Below are positions 1,625 through 23,360 of a stretch of DNA of 24,721 nucleotides, in pieces (positions within the stretch are counted from its first letter, which is position 1; each line of letters begins with the position of its first letter). The position numbers were made by a program, and so were the translations under genes. Source of the DNA: a virus; IMG/VR virus record IMGVR_UViG_3300037406_000002, positions 1 to 24,721 of that record; one strand, written 5' to 3'. The notes below the pieces were generated by a model, which made no database searches, was not told the DNA's origin, and worked only from the letters and a program-made list of their open reading frames with translations.

Positions 1625-4600
1625 CTATGGTCTAATTAGCTTCAGTGCTTGTTGTCGTTGAGTAGCTGCTGAGGATCTAAACCCTCTAATGTCAGGAGTA
1701 GTAATGTATTGGTTAACAGTATTGTTAGTCACATTCATACCACCACCAATGCCAGATGCACCATTAGCAGCTATCATACCCTTTAGCCCTTTAGCAAGTG
1801 GTACAGGTAGTACTACTTCTTTGGGCTTAAGCATTGCAGGGTATACATCTCCAAGTCCCTCCATGCCGGGAACTTCCCATCCATTAGCCGCTGTAGGTAT
1901 TCCCATGAATGGTGGTGTAGACCCTCCACTAGTTCCACCACTTTTAGCACTACCCCCGGCTATACCTAACACAGCACCTATACCTGAAGATACTGCTCCC
2001 CAGAAACCTCCACCACCTGAACTAGACCCTAGACCAGATAAACCCTTTTGCAGTAACTGCATTAATTGAGACTGTATATAGGCCATAGCAATCTTCTGTA
2101 GTGTCTTCACAAATGTTTGGTATATACTATCAAAGATACGTGTAAACACTGCACCAAATGAGTTACCCATTTGGTTTAGCTGATCTTGTGTCTTTTGTAT
2201 CTGCTGTTGTATCTGCTGTATTCTCTGGGTATAGGGATCATTTGCATCATTAGGGTATGATTGTTTCCATTGTAATTGCTGCATCTGATACTGCATCAAC
2301 TGAGACTGTTCATCGTACTTCTGTGTTTGCAATTGTCCTGTAGCTTGTGGGTTACCAAATAGTCCAGCCTGTAGACCTCCCATTATAGCCTCTACACTAC
2401 CACTAAGTAAAGTTTGTCGCGCTTGTTCTGCTACTGCTAAAGCAGCTTCAGCATTAGTTACTTTCTTTATAGCAGCTTCATGGTCTAGTATAGCTTGACT
2501 ATCTGCCCCTAGAGAATTTATGAAGGACTTACCTTCAGGACTGTTTTCCCATGCTGCTACTGCTTGATCACCAGAACTAGAATAAAGTCTATTCATATTC
2601 TGTTCACCACTCAACTTGTCTGTCATAGTTTGTGTGGATAACTGAAGATCTGATTTCTGTTGAGCTACAGTGTAGGCTCTAATCATGTCTTCAGTACTAC
2701 TTATAGCAGTGTCAGCAGCATCACCTAAGTTCTTACGTATGCTAGCAATCGCAACAGAGTTTGTGTTAGCCCATTCATCTACTGCTTTCTGAGCAGGATT
2801 GTACATGTCTGATAGGGCAAACTTTAGACCTTCTGTACCTTCTTTTACTTTCTGTATCTCAGACATTATAGGGTCATAAGAACTTTGCGCCTCAGTCTGG
2901 TTAGCATTAGCCCTTATCTGATCTTCTACTTGTCCACCGCCACTAATAGGATTAGTCTTATGGTACTCATCTACAGCTTCTTGTCCGGCATCATATAGTG
3001 AAGGGTTGTACTTCTTATTAAAATCAGAGATTGCCTTCTCATGTGCAGCCTTTAGATCCCTTAAGAACTTTTCATCCTCAGTGTTTAGTTGCTGTTGAGC
3101 ACCTTGTAAGAATACCTTCTGAGCAGGTGAAGAACCATCACCCATTTGCATCCACTTATCTACCCCACCGGCATCGCCCACAGCAGTCTTTAGGGCTTTA
3201 TTTTCTGGGAGTGATAATCTATCATCATATTGCGCTTTTACTAAGGCAGCATGAGCTATAGTGTTTGCGTTAGCTACTTCTATACTTTCAGAGAATACTT
3301 TAAGTTTCTCTTGTGCTTCAGTAAGCCCATCAGCAAGTTTCTTACCTACAGTACCTAGTTGTTTCCACATGTCTTGAGTAATGCCCGGTATATTAGACAT
3401 TAGGTTCTTAAGCCATGTAGGGGTAGGGTCTTGTGCTTTATCAAGAGCACTTGAAGCTTTATCTGTTATGTTTTCTGCGTACTTTGCATGAGAAGCAGCA
3501 TCTAACTGATTGGCTACACCCTCTAGTACTTTTGCATGAGCAGGAGTATTCACTGGACCTAGTTTGTGATGAAGGTCAAACATCGCACTGTCTAGATAGT
3601 TGCTGCTATCAAAAGGTTGAGCCTTAACCTTTAGAGCAAGTATCTTTTCTAGCTTAACTATCTCATCATTATATTGAGTAAGTGCTTCTTTCTTTTGTTT
3701 AGCAAGTTCTTTTGCATCAGTCAGTGCAATCTTTTGATTAGCATTGAACTTATCTAAGTAGTCAGGAGTAACAGGATTAACTCCGCCACTAGTATTAGAT
3801 GTATCAGAGCCAGTATAGTATTTATTGAGTAATGCTTCAGCATCCAATTGGTGTTGATCATAACGTTTAGGGAATGCAGATACTTGCACTTTCTGAGCAT
3901 TTTCACCCGGTGTTTTGCTGCTATCCCACCCAGGTATTAAATGCCTATAGTATGATGCTGCTGATTTAGCAGGGTCCATCATATCAGCAACACTACCCCA
4001 TTTGTCTGTCTCACCTGCACGTTGCTGAAACACACCTACACTGTCATGATCATTATGCTTACCGAGATTAGGCAAGTTCTTTAAGTTACTCTCAACTATA
4101 CCAGTCTCTATAGCAGATAGTATCTGTGCTTTAGTAGCCCCCATCTTTTCGCCAGTCTCTACTATAGTCTGGGCTATACTACTCGAACTATCAGACCCCG
4201 TATAAGTAGGTGCAGACCTTAGATCAAGTTGTTTAAGTTCATTGTATGTAGATAGAGTACTGTTAAGTTGAGCAAGTCTATCCTGAACCTTTTGCATATT
4301 GCCTTGAAGTTCATTATTCCTTTGCCCTGCCGGAGTAGAGTATTGGGCTTGCATCTTAGTAAGGTCTGCCTGATAAGCAGCTATCTTACCTGTAATGTCT
4401 GTAATTCTAGTATCCAAAACACTAGTATTACCTGTCCCCATATTAGCTTTAATTTGACTTAACTCTGTGATGAAGTATTGATCCTGAGCATCTCTGTTCT
4501 TCACATTGTCAGGCATGGTGCGGAAACGATAGGTAGACTGATCACTGGCTAGTTCCGTTTGTCTCTGGGATAGACTGTTATTTAGATCCGTTAACGCATT

Positions 4601-17060: not shown

Positions 17061-18603
17061 TCTGTTGATCCTTTAGATCAGATAAGTTCTGTGATAGCTG
17101 TTTAGCTACATCATTCTCTAGGTCTTGAAGTAGTTCTTCATCCCATCCAGCTACTACCCTTAAGTATGTAGCTAATGGAAGTCCAGCAGCTACAGCAGCA
17201 TCAGCACCTTGCCAGAAGGATAGATCAGCCATTGCAAGTGCTAATGGGTCTCTATCACCAGCATCTGCATAGTCTGCGGTCAACATTGCATCTTCATCAA
17301 GTCCACCTTCACCGAAGGTATTCTCTAGTTCTATACAACGATGCATAACCTCTACCCATGCTGGTTTGAACCTCTTTTGTCTAGCCTTTGTTCTACCTCT
17401 TATAGGTTGCTCAAGCATGTATACACTTTCGCCTGAAGGCCAGTTACCAGAGATTGCATTATAAGGTGTGCCAGTACTTCGACAGAAACTTTCAACCTTA
17501 AGTTTATACACTGCTAGTAGTTGAGTAGGATCACCCGGCTCTATAGTTCCCCATGCTGCTTCTTCTTCATCAGCATGATAATGTGTGCCAGGTCCAGTCT
17601 TTGGCCTAACACGTTTACCATTAATGGTCTGTAGTTTATAGCCTTTAGACCATGTACGTTGGTATCCTGTCATTCTAGCAGCAGCAGAGATATCATATTG
17701 AGTGTCGTTGATTTGATCTTGTGAGCCTAAACCACCACCGTCAAGTATAGATGCTCCGTAGTTTTCAAACTCATCAGATGGGTTAGAGAAGTGGATAAAG
17801 GGTATACTTAGTGGTTGGCCATCTTCATCAACATAGGGTATAGCTACAGGTTCAGTACCTGCTGGTTGAACACCTGCTTGTGTACCTGCTGTAGTATAGC
17901 CACTAGCTATGTCATCAGCTACAACAAAAGGTAGCCAGTTACCTAGACCATTTGCTAGATAGCGTTCGATACCACCTTCATAGTAAACTGTACGTCTCTT
18001 ACCAATTGGGCTATCCCATTCCTTAACGGCGTATAGCATTTCACCATAAGCATCGTAGCCTATGAACACTCCTGTAAAACCATCCCACCACTTTTCTCTA
18101 TGGATTATTATCTTTTCTTTTTCATAGTTGTACTCAACCATGAGACAGAAGTTTCCATCCCGTATAGTGTTACGATGTGTACGTTGCTGTAAGTCATCAA
18201 ACTTAGACTTCTGCCAGAACATGTTTATCCAAGTTTGTGTACTATCATCTTTACACAGTATACCCTTTAGTTCAAGTCGATCAGCATGTTCACTGAGGAT
18301 TTGTCCACAAACGTTATCGCAATACTCGTGGCCTAAAACACCTTCCATCATTCTCTGTTGATCCATAGTTAAGGTAACATCTTGTCTACCCATAGCATAG
18401 TTTCTAAAGTTTATGATGTTTCTAAAAGAGTTTAGTGTCTCAGTACGATCAACCGTTAGCTGCTCGTTTATATCTGTAACGTTTGTTCGGAGCTTTCCCA
18501 ACATCTTTTTTCTCGCGCCTTGTGCGGGGTTTGAAAGATCTTGCTGTTTCGATTTTCGTGTTATAGCTATACGTTTGCCCGTCGAAGTCTTCAGGATTGC
18601 CAT
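16939..18603 (-). CDS. Portal protein (SPP1 gp6-like)
   Basis: The 554-residue protein follows the large terminase and precedes the MuF-like gene, the fixed place of the portal, which forms the dodecameric DNA gate of the head. Sequence features fit the SPP1 gp6-like family: the early helix (CDNVCGQILSEHADRLELKGI), the FMLEQPIRGRTKARQKRFKPAWVEVMHRC-like long helix near residue 400 (as YMLEQPIRGRTKARQKRF), and a disordered basic C-terminus. ATG 18601-18603 has GAGGT 8 bases upstream, so I keep this start although it lies 155 bases inside the terminase gene; the next in-frame ATG (18502-18504) has a poorer site. Confidence 0.8.
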   Translation of the reverse strand: MAILKTSTGKRIAITRKSKQQDLSNPAQGARKKMLGKLRTNVTDINEQLTVDRTETLNSFRNIINFRNYAMGRQDVTLTMDQQRMMEGVLGHEYCDNVCGQILSEHADRLELKGILCKDDSTQTWINMFWQKSKFDDLQQRTHRNTIRDGNFCLMVEYNYEKEKIIIHREKWWDGFTGVFIGYDAYGEMLYAVKEWDSPIGKRRTVYYEGGIERYLANGLGNWLPFVVADDIASGYTTAGTQAGVQPAGTEPVAIPYVDEDGQPLSIPFIHFSNPSDEFENYGASILDGGGLGSQDQINDTQYDISAAARMTGYQRTWSKGYKLQTINGKRVRPKTGPGTHYHADEEEAAWGTIEPGDPTQLLAVYKLKVESFCRSTGTPYNAISGNWPSGESVYMLEQPIRGRTKARQKRFKPAWVEVMHRCIELENTFGEGGLDEDAMLTADYADAGDRDPLALAMADLSFWQGADAAVAAGLPLATYLRVVAGWDEELLQDLENDVAKQLSQNLSDLKDQQNVINPTPSASRGKTKTGPTNVNGNKASTTANKKKPYSKAV

Positions 18604-20320: not shown

Positions 20321-20357
20321 AAAAACAGTAGAGACTATAGGGCTATAATCTCTACTG
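20321..20357 (-). terminator. Intrinsic terminator before terL
   Basis: On the coding strand CAGTAGAGATTATAG pairs with CTATAGTCTCTACTG (15 positions, one G-U) around a very short loop and is followed at once by TTTTT. Plus-strand arms are 20326-20340 and 20343-20357, with the A run at 20321-20325. It lies 37 bases upstream of the terL start, after the 120-residue gene. Confidence 0.8.
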
Positions 20358-21931: not shown

Positions 21932-23110
21932 CTAATCATCTTCCAGTTCTATTGGTTCTGATTGTTTTGATTGTGCTGCTAGTCTAGCGTTTATAATAGC
22001 ATTAGCCCTGTTTAGTTGACCTGCTTTAGCACTAGAGGCTGCACTGGGTTTAGGGTGATCACTAACAGGTAATGGTGGAGGGCTAATGGCTACAACACTT
22101 TTCTCTCTGCTATCACTTGAAGTACCTATGATGCTGTCTCTAGGTTTACTAATAAGACTACTCAAGCCTGTAGCTACATTAGATAGGAAGTCCATCTTCA
22201 GTGATACATCAATACCTGTCACTTTAAACTCTTCTAACAAGAGTTTAGCATCAGGTGTTAATCCTGCTTGATCCCTTTTGATGAGAATGTACTTCTCATT
22301 AACAGCGTTCATGAAATAACCTATACACTCTTTACATGTAGCTGCTATTCCAGTAATCAAAGCCATGGCTTGATCGGCTTTAATCATTGTCTTAAGATCA
22401 CGTTCACGGTGGTGTGCAGTGTCTACAAGTCGTCTACGCTGTTCTGTAGCAATGTCTATCTGTTTCCATGTATGTTCTTGGTTTATGCCTTTACGATAGA
22501 CATCCACTAACACCTTTAGAAAGTCTTCTGTTATTTCCCCATCGTCTGTTAACTTATCAGCCAAGCTAGTGATTAGGTTGTTTAGTTTCTTTCTAGTGTT
22601 GTAGTCTACATCAAAGCCTAGACCTTCCTTCAAAGTGTTGATACGTACATCTTGAAGGGCTATCTCATGGTTTAGGGATAGTAGGTCTGGATCATTTAAT
22701 GCTCGTTGAAAGTCTGACTTCAAGTGTGAAGGCATACTCTCTGATGTTCTTAGGTGAGTAGCTCTAGGGTGTAGTGATCCTGTTAGTGCTTTACCCCCGT
22801 GCCTAAAACATCTGCCATTATCCATTATAGCCATAGACTGGCATCTAGCATTTTCTTGTGTTACAGGGTCTATTACGCCGGGGCGTCTAGAGTAGCATAT
22901 AGGTTGTTGTTCATCATTGTAAGCAAAAACCCTTTTTCCATCTTCAGTGTAGGCCACAGGTGCATCACGTAGTTGTTTATCATTACGTTTGATGTACAAT
23001 TTACCTATCTGTGCAGGTGTAATGTCTCGCTCTATTAGATGTTTACGTCTTCCGGGCGGAGCGTTCATATCCTTTAGTTGTTGTGGAGTGTAATTTCTTA
23101 GTGTTGCCAT
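21932..23110 (-). CDS. Putative small terminase subunit / DNA packaging protein
   Basis: The 392-residue protein carries a Cys/His cluster C72, C90, C101, H104 followed by GG (GRCFRHGGKAL), the C...RC...G.C..HGG pattern I associate with phage small terminase proteins. The preceding residues repeat an RRxGxxDP context. Residues about 130-290 are long charged helices suited to oligomerisation, and the tail is disordered and acidic. It lies upstream of terL with three small genes between. AAAGGA is about 11 bases before ATG 23108-23110. At 392 residues it is longer than most small terminases, so a different packaging or regulatory role is possible. The flanking non-coding DNA is rich in inverted repeats, which would suit a packaging site. 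Confidence 0.55.
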   Translation of the reverse strand: MATLRNYTPQQLKDMNAPPGRRKHLIERDITPAQIGKLYIKRNDKQLRDAPVAYTEDGKRVFAYNDEQQPICYSRRPGVIDPVTQENARCQSMAIMDNGRCFRHGGKALTGSLHPRATHLRTSESMPSHLKSDFQRALNDPDLLSLNHEIALQDVRINTLKEGLGFDVDYNTRKKLNNLITSLADKLTDDGEITEDFLKVLVDVYRKGINQEHTWKQIDIATEQRRRLVDTAHHRERDLKTMIKADQAMALITGIAATCKECIGYFMNAVNEKYILIKRDQAGLTPDAKLLLEEFKVTGIDVSLKMDFLSNVATGLSSLISKPRDSIIGTSSDSREKSVVAISPPPLPVSDHPKPSAASSAKAGQLNRANAIINARLAAQSKQSEPIELEDD

Positions 23111-23132
23111 AGTGTTTAGATCCTTTTCGAGC

Positions 23133-23334
23133 AGGGCGACCGTCCTAATCGCCCTTACTCGCAGGGTATAGGGGACACTTCCATAAAGTTAAGGCCCGTA
23201 ACTTCCTAGACTTCAGGCAATCAACGCTCTATACCCTGTGTACGACAACAGCCACCACCACTGTTGCCGCACATTATAGCAGAGCCAGCCTCTACTACGC
23301 TATCCATCTAGACTTCTCTTCGAGGTTTGGCTCT
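23133..23334 (-). other. Cluster of four hairpins upstream of the putative small terminase
   Basis: The 270-base gap from 23111 to 23380 contains four inverted repeats almost end to end. In plus coordinates: AGGGCGA/TCGCCCT (23133-23139 with 23149-23155, 7 bp); CAGGGTATAG/CTATACCCTG (23162-23171 with 23229-23238, 10 bp, enclosing smaller stems such as AAGTTA/TAACTT); 12 positions at 23240-23251 with 23261-23272 (two G-U, loop of three CCA repeats); and AGAGCCA/TGGCTCT with CCTC/GAGG (23281-23292 with 23322-23334). It could be a structured RNA leader, a packaging (pac/cos) site, or both. No tRNA fits. Confidence 0.65.
23273..23281 (-). promoter_or_regulatory. Extended -10 promoter element toward the small terminase gene
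   Basis: The coding strand reads TGCTATAAT, a perfect extended -10 box (TGnTATAAT), which can work without a good -35; none is seen 16-18 bases upstream. Transcription would begin near 23266, inside the 12-position hairpin, and give a leader of about 155 bases before ATG 23110. Confidence 0.5.
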
Positions 23335-23360
23335 ACAGTTTAGTGGAATGGCCCACATTT

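Follow-up and report, generated by a model that had tools for sequence, protein, structure and literature searches.

A predicted row of abutting RNA hairpins before the TerS-like gene of a tailed phage

The gap before a TerS-like gene of a tailed phage holds a row of inverted repeats. On balance, we take this element to be a structured leader (intercistronic) RNA of the packaging and late operon, which would shield or mark the end of the mRNA and leave the ribosome site open. The basis is the predicted structure, its excess over shuffled sequences, the recurrence of structure in late-operon gaps and in relatives, and the bias of gap structure toward the transcribed strand. Because similar gap structure occurs in T7, in lambda and across the late operon of this phage, we regard the element as a pronounced example of a common feature. 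Hairpin-rich gaps are normal in phages such as T7, and the likeliest reading is an ordinary mRNA leader, not a new kind of element.

The hairpin row and its gene context

The window, the whole stretch of 24,721 nt that was analysed, is part of a tailed phage, and its recognised genes are on the minus strand. It corresponds to bases 32047–56767 of a longer contig, G001 (IMG/VR contig IMGVR_UViG_3300029986_000019, 61,690 bases), with one mismatch. A 236-base repeat is common to both ends of G001, so this contig is probably a complete circular map. A TTAGGG-like run stands at the end of the window (24700–24721). A telomere was considered there and rejected, as the run reads (CCTAAC)n in the longer contig and codes for the NPNPNP linker of a 274-aa protein. 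Since it is a coding repeat there, the window probably ends in an assembly break at the repeat and not in a telomere.

On the minus strand, a gap of 270 bases separates a 198-aa gene (23977–23381) from a 392-aa gene downstream of it (23110–21932). The product of the 392-aa gene is TerS-like, judged by position and conservation. Its relatives in the same lineage are 36–43% identical, and the large terminase (TerL) is the next gene after TerS in 8 of the 8 more distant relatives tested. Family libraries gave no above-cutoff match for the 392-aa gene; the nearest was HGGxSTG, below its cutoff. No match was found by tblastn with TerS against 50,697 phage records, and a TerS pattern search of genome contigs returned 31 stretches, none of them a relative. 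Six IMG/VR contigs were found with TerS, and they were identical over the shared part, the hairpin element included. Gene calls in the automatic analysis were plain ORF picks, and the start position of the 192-aa gene downstream of TerS is uncertain. The features of the region are as follows, in window positions.

23374..23380, minus strand: TATAAAT, a −10-like box and candidate start of the full-length leader, directly before the dispersed motif copy
23360..23374, minus strand: copy of the dispersed motif TCATTCCCAGAGAAA, an exact match
23279..23336, minus strand: predicted hairpin H0, with a 9-bp closing stem (7 bp + 2) and an inner 4-bp stem
23273..23281, minus strand: TGCTATAAT, an extended −10 box by its sequence
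23239..23273, minus strand: predicted hairpin H1, with a 14-bp stem and a 7-nt loop; the 3′ arm has the TerS start as an alternative pairing partner
23162..23238, minus strand: predicted hairpin H2, 77 nt, with a 10-bp closing stem and an inner hairpin
23128..23161, minus strand: predicted hairpin H3, 34 nt, with a 7-bp core and outer pairs
23121..23127, minus strand: AAAAGGA, a ribosome-binding sequence directly after H3 and 10 bases before the ATG
21932..23110, minus strand: TerS-like gene, 392 aa, with a CxxHGG motif
20326..20357, minus strand: strong intrinsic-terminator-like hairpin, then T5, between the 120-aa gene and TerL

When the coordinates were recomputed, the inverted repeats lay where the original prediction had placed them. 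They comprise 7 bp in H0 (23281–23287/23328–23334), 13 nt in H1 (23239–23251/23261–23273; 85% complementary as DNA), 10 bp in H2 (23162–23171/23229–23238) and 7 bp in H3 (23133–23139/23149–23155), which grows to the 34-nt hairpin in the RNA fold. The imperfect positions of the H1 repeat are G·U pairs in the minus-strand RNA. The hairpins had been described as nearly gapless, and they proved tighter than that: in the predicted fold, H1, H2 and H3 (23273–23128, minus strand) are three stem-loops that abut with zero unpaired bases between them. The AAAAGGA ribosome site was mostly open in the predicted folds of five transcript lengths.

The minus strand of 23275–23118 had a minimum free energy (MFE) of −68.4 kcal/mol over 158 nt, with a z of −5.43 and 0 of 200 dinucleotide-preserving shuffles as stable, which agrees with the prediction of a leader capable of forming structured RNA directly before the TerS-like gene. 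For 23380–23105, z was −4.86, and again 0 of 200 shuffles were as stable. Over the span 23133–23334, z was −4.0 on the minus strand (0/200 shuffles) and −3.4 on the plus strand (1/200). The 77-nt H2 alone was modestly unusual (z −2.0, 5/200 shuffles). Among 1230 windows of 200 nt on both strands of the 61.7-kb contig, the one with the lowest MFE is in the TerS gap; others have lower z.

Rfam 15, searched with the element at gathering and lax thresholds, gave chance-level matches only, and the expectation that no known family would match was thus borne out. The phi29 packaging-RNA family is, we presume, among the Rfam entries; no covariance-model match to this type of RNA was found in the element. 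A covariance model of the element itself, run against 25 sources, matched only the element, at one site that is present in two records, and the antisense of the element, and it had no match in lambda, T7 or HK022. ARAGORN and Rfam detected no tRNA fold in the window. Elsewhere, L021 carries a 115-nt tRNA at 17998–18112 on the minus strand (Rfam 49.5 bits), which ARAGORN missed. By eye, it is a tRNA-Leu(UAG) whose variable arm is very long.

Gap structure in this phage, its relatives, T7 and lambda

The 24 gaps of 45–700 nt in G001 had a mean z of −2.40, versus −0.68 in 120 coding pieces. The values were −5.2 before TerS, −4.6 before the 192-aa gene, −3.8 before the 114-aa gene, −4.2 before TerL and −6.6 before the 124-aa gene. 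Over the part of the operon from TerS to the 124-aa gene, TerL included, most gaps fold strongly, and their hairpins are mutually unrelated; those of the leader share no sequence with the other gaps of this phage. The gap before the 370-aa capsid gene was unstructured (z +0.26). The highest-scoring strand-neutral stem was a very long inverted repeat at G001 26758–26978, in the gap that follows the structural genes. The 200-nt window at G001 26801 had a plus-strand z of −9.4.

Scans with the TerL alignment found the relatives G005, G006 and G007 and the fragment L147. TerL of G005 was 54% identical across the full alignment and 57% identical in its best segment; the values were 51% for G006 and 50% for G007. 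The TerS leaders of the relatives showed no sequence likeness to the element in a DNA search (best E 0.05). Strong hairpins, unrelated to those of this phage, also occupy many gaps of G005 and G006. The G005 leader contains two abutting hairpins over 112 nt (z −5.57, 0/200 shuffles); a gene for tRNA-Gly(acc) comes next, right before TerS (L136 204–278, minus strand; ARAGORN; Rfam 46.7 bits). The gap before TerL in G005 had a z of −3.83. G006 was unstructured before TerS (z +0.78) and had some structure before TerL (z −2.01). The automatic pipeline gave no gaps for G007, and hand-picked gaps were folded instead; those before the 84-aa gene (z −5.59) and TerL (z −4.79) were structured. Altogether, 3 of the 11 folded TerS leaders were structured, namely those of this phage, G005 and L158. 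The L158 leader is one very long hairpin, then a T run.

Two side observations concern these contigs. The anticodon arm of the L136 tRNA-Gly(acc) is unusual, with either a 4-bp stem and a 10-nt loop or an 8-nt loop and a T·T mismatch. The contigs L009 and L010, which come from two metagenomes, begin at exactly the same position within TerS (window 22096, G001 54142), and the G005 contig ends are also inside TerS, which may reflect polymorphism or a packaging-related end.

The two strands were compared in 67 gaps of 40–350 nt from G001, G005 and G006. The G005 gap before TerS, where TerS is split over the contig ends, was left out of this set and of the 41-gap set described below. The mean z was −1.84 for the sense strand and −1.15 for the antisense strand (paired p 3.3e-4), and the same sense gaps were more stably folded than coding pieces matched to them in length (p 1.6e-6). 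Coding pieces had a smaller sense bias (−0.43 vs −0.28 antisense, n = 138, p 0.018). For the TerS gap, z was −4.83 in sense and −2.76 in antisense. A strand difference as large as that at 23133–23334 was present in 35 of 615 windows and is hence unexceptional. A strand-symmetric search, which covered gaps of 30–600 nt, found 26 strong stems in 14,649 nt of gaps versus 37 in 141,200 nt of coding sequence. The imperfections of such stems, in gaps of the same size limits, were counted as G·T versus A·C, a test of RNA versus DNA; the ratios were 17:18 and 17:11 (p 0.34), with no excess. For gaps in general, there is moderate evidence of an RNA role, and for the TerS gap alone the evidence is weak.

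Some gap hairpins of T7 and lambda are known processing or leader elements. The 19 gaps of T7 had a mean z of −2.52 in sense and −1.00 in antisense, and its coding pieces −0.18; for the 11 gaps of lambda, the values were −2.11, −1.79 and −0.26. As in T7, stable hairpins above the coding background occupy the gaps of a long operon in this phage, the transcribed strand is the stronger one, and the mean gap z is similar (−2.52 in T7, −2.48 here). A difference is that T7 gap hairpins include RNase III processing sites with mapped cleavage, whereas the three abutting hairpins of our element are known from a predicted fold.

Promoter-like boxes and a dispersed motif

An extended −10 box had been predicted between two of the repeats. 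The box, TGCTATAAT, is present, but it overlaps both hairpins, with its TGC in the 3′ arm of H0 and its last T as the first base of H1. No −35 hexamer was evident at this box. The predicted start near 23266 does cut H1 if this box is used, as a transcript begun about 7 bases on would lose part of the 5′ arm. It had also been stated that the full structure forms only in readthrough RNA or acts as DNA. The truncation from TGCTATAAT stands, but the TATAAAT box (23380–23374), which lies upstream of all hairpins H0–H3, could give the full leader. TATAAAT seems the likelier start of the full leader than the TGCTATAAT box.

At up to 3 mismatches, the TCATTCCCAGAGAAA motif has 29 sites in the 61.7-kb contig: window 23360–23374 on the minus strand and 28 others (L021–L024). 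Eight are in gaps, and 6 of these 8 point with transcription. Four of the six co-directional gap copies directly follow a TATAAT-like box (at least 5/6), three of them a perfect one, and the background is 5.2%; the copy at 23360–23374 is outside those four by the strict score. The core motif CCAGAGAA was over-represented in G001, G005 and G006, where YCCAGAGAA had 20, 14 and 26 sites versus 0.7, 0.6 and 2.8 expected. Gaps make up 10–14% of these genomes and hold 18 of the 60 motif sites. By analogy with the repeats of cluster O phages (PMC4351075), the CCAGAGAA motif resembles a set of operators or stoperators shared across the lineage. The pattern ATAATCATTCCCAGARAA was found in 7 stretches of viral contigs. 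Four are from this phage's own contigs; L027, L031 and L032, with one copy each and no shared protein, were taken as chance.

Other repeats were also observed. G005 (L136, L166–L168, L137) has dispersed repeats of overlapping 12-mers, e.g. CACCGATCTTGG and GGCCCATGCACC, in up to 8 copies. In L002, a long region at about 1800–3200 lacks large ORFs and contains many short repeats (TAAACTCTAG/CTAGAGTTTA); it is possibly an origin or control region.

Explanations for the leader

As a structured leader, the element would be made either from a start at the upstream TATAAAT box or when transcription reads through from the preceding gene. The RNA would fold into H0–H3, with no gap between H1, H2 and H3. 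This row would shield the untranslated stretch, and it could serve the TerS mRNA as a mark or as protection at the 5′ end, through processing or stability. With H3 ending just before the ribosome site, the site would stay open. The benefit of such a leader to the phage is one that we infer. The open-licence literature yielded no title on structured RNA directly upstream of phage terS.

Two known systems were compared with it. The SAS/ESAS of cluster K mycobacteriophages (PMC3203893) comprise a 13-bp GGGATAGGAGCCC at gene starts. In both that system and ours, inverted repeats stand shortly before translation starts, and there is also a short dispersed repeat. Unlike SAS/ESAS, our leader has no hairpin sequence in common with other gaps, and the consensus GGGATAGGAGCCC is absent from the window (0 matches at up to 2 mismatches). 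The T4 gene 43 translational operator is also a leader hairpin near a ribosome site (PMC3014915); a difference is that there is no evidence of TerS binding its own leader.

Two other explanations also concern a leader RNA. By analogy, the leader might be a Put-like RNA antiterminator that binds the transcribing polymerase and passes late-operon terminators, which we regard as unlikely. The put RNA of HK022 (PMC9378689) is about 70 nt with two adjacent stem-loops and belongs to early operons. Our abutting stem-loops in an operon leader resemble it; H1–H2 or H2–H3 abut, but the three hairpins here cover 146 nt, and H0 may be counted as a fourth. The strong terminator that separates the 120-aa gene from TerL within the operon would need read-through, and no promoter was evident by eye between it (20357–20326) and TerL; a single internal terminator may simply be leaky, though. 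There is no sequence likeness to put, as the best leader match in the HK022 genome was 13 nt (E 0.13), inside the integrase gene, and the covariance model found nothing there. Moreover, the other gaps carry unrelated hairpins. The modelled folds also allow a switch, to which we give a small probability. With TerS on, the 3′ arm of H1 would pair with the 5′ arm of the same hairpin; with TerS off, its partner would be UAUGGCAACA at the TerS start. The off state would belong to RNAs begun at the TGCTATAAT box, which lack the 5′ arm of H1. GGCAACA is common to that arm and the TerS start. In RNAs ending at 23060, the start region was 0.14–0.18 unpaired with RNA starts at 23268–23258 versus 0.65 with starts at 23274–23272, and shuffling the first 28 nt gave equal occlusion in 8 of 300 cases. 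But the start region was also partly closed with RNA starts at 23370 (0.42) and 23280 (0.26), and the result changed with the choice of 3′ end for folding. In 41 hairpin gaps (30–400 nt with a strong stem), the arms had no preference for the start of their own gene (mean rank 0.49; TerS gap 0.071), and a general start-codon switch was not supported.

Three further explanations were weighed. It is improbable that the leader releases a stable non-coding RNA, either a packaging RNA or a CBASS-triggering one. The analogy is with cabRNAs, which PMC10686824 describes as hairpin RNAs from terS–terL of staphylococcal phages that trigger CBASS via a cGAS-like cyclase and are unconserved in sequence between divergent phages. 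In both cases a strong RNA structure, predicted in ours, is found at terminase genes. cabRNAs originate inside terS–terL, whereas our element lies upstream of terS, and no Rfam family matched it, phi29 packaging RNA included. A DNA packaging site (pac or cos) built of inverted repeats, which had been suggested for the region, is quite improbable and was not borne out. Such sites often lie before TerS/TerL, as the element does, but similar repeats fill other late-operon gaps and are not site-specific, and gap structure favours the transcribed strand; with hairpins throughout the late operon and this bias, pac/cos is not supported. G001, L001, L003, L004/L011 and the window also run through the site and the contigs end elsewhere, which is weak evidence against it. 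That a GC-richer stretch of this AT-rich phage folds so well by chance is hardly credible; composition is all that favours this view, and none of the 200 dinucleotide-preserving shuffles was as stable.

For phage genomes more widely, hairpin arrays beside terminase genes need a genome-wide control before they are read as packaging sites, because in this phage such hairpins recur along the late operon and the pattern resembles that of T7 and lambda gaps. There is also a small chance that the three abutting hairpins are a cis-acting leader that acts on the polymerase during transcription, put-like but unrelated in sequence, or a TerS toggle by promoter choice, with relatives carrying their own unrelated versions. 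If so, synthesis of the packaging motor would be timed by RNA alone, and control of read-through or of TerS timing would amount to RNA-only control of packaging genes.
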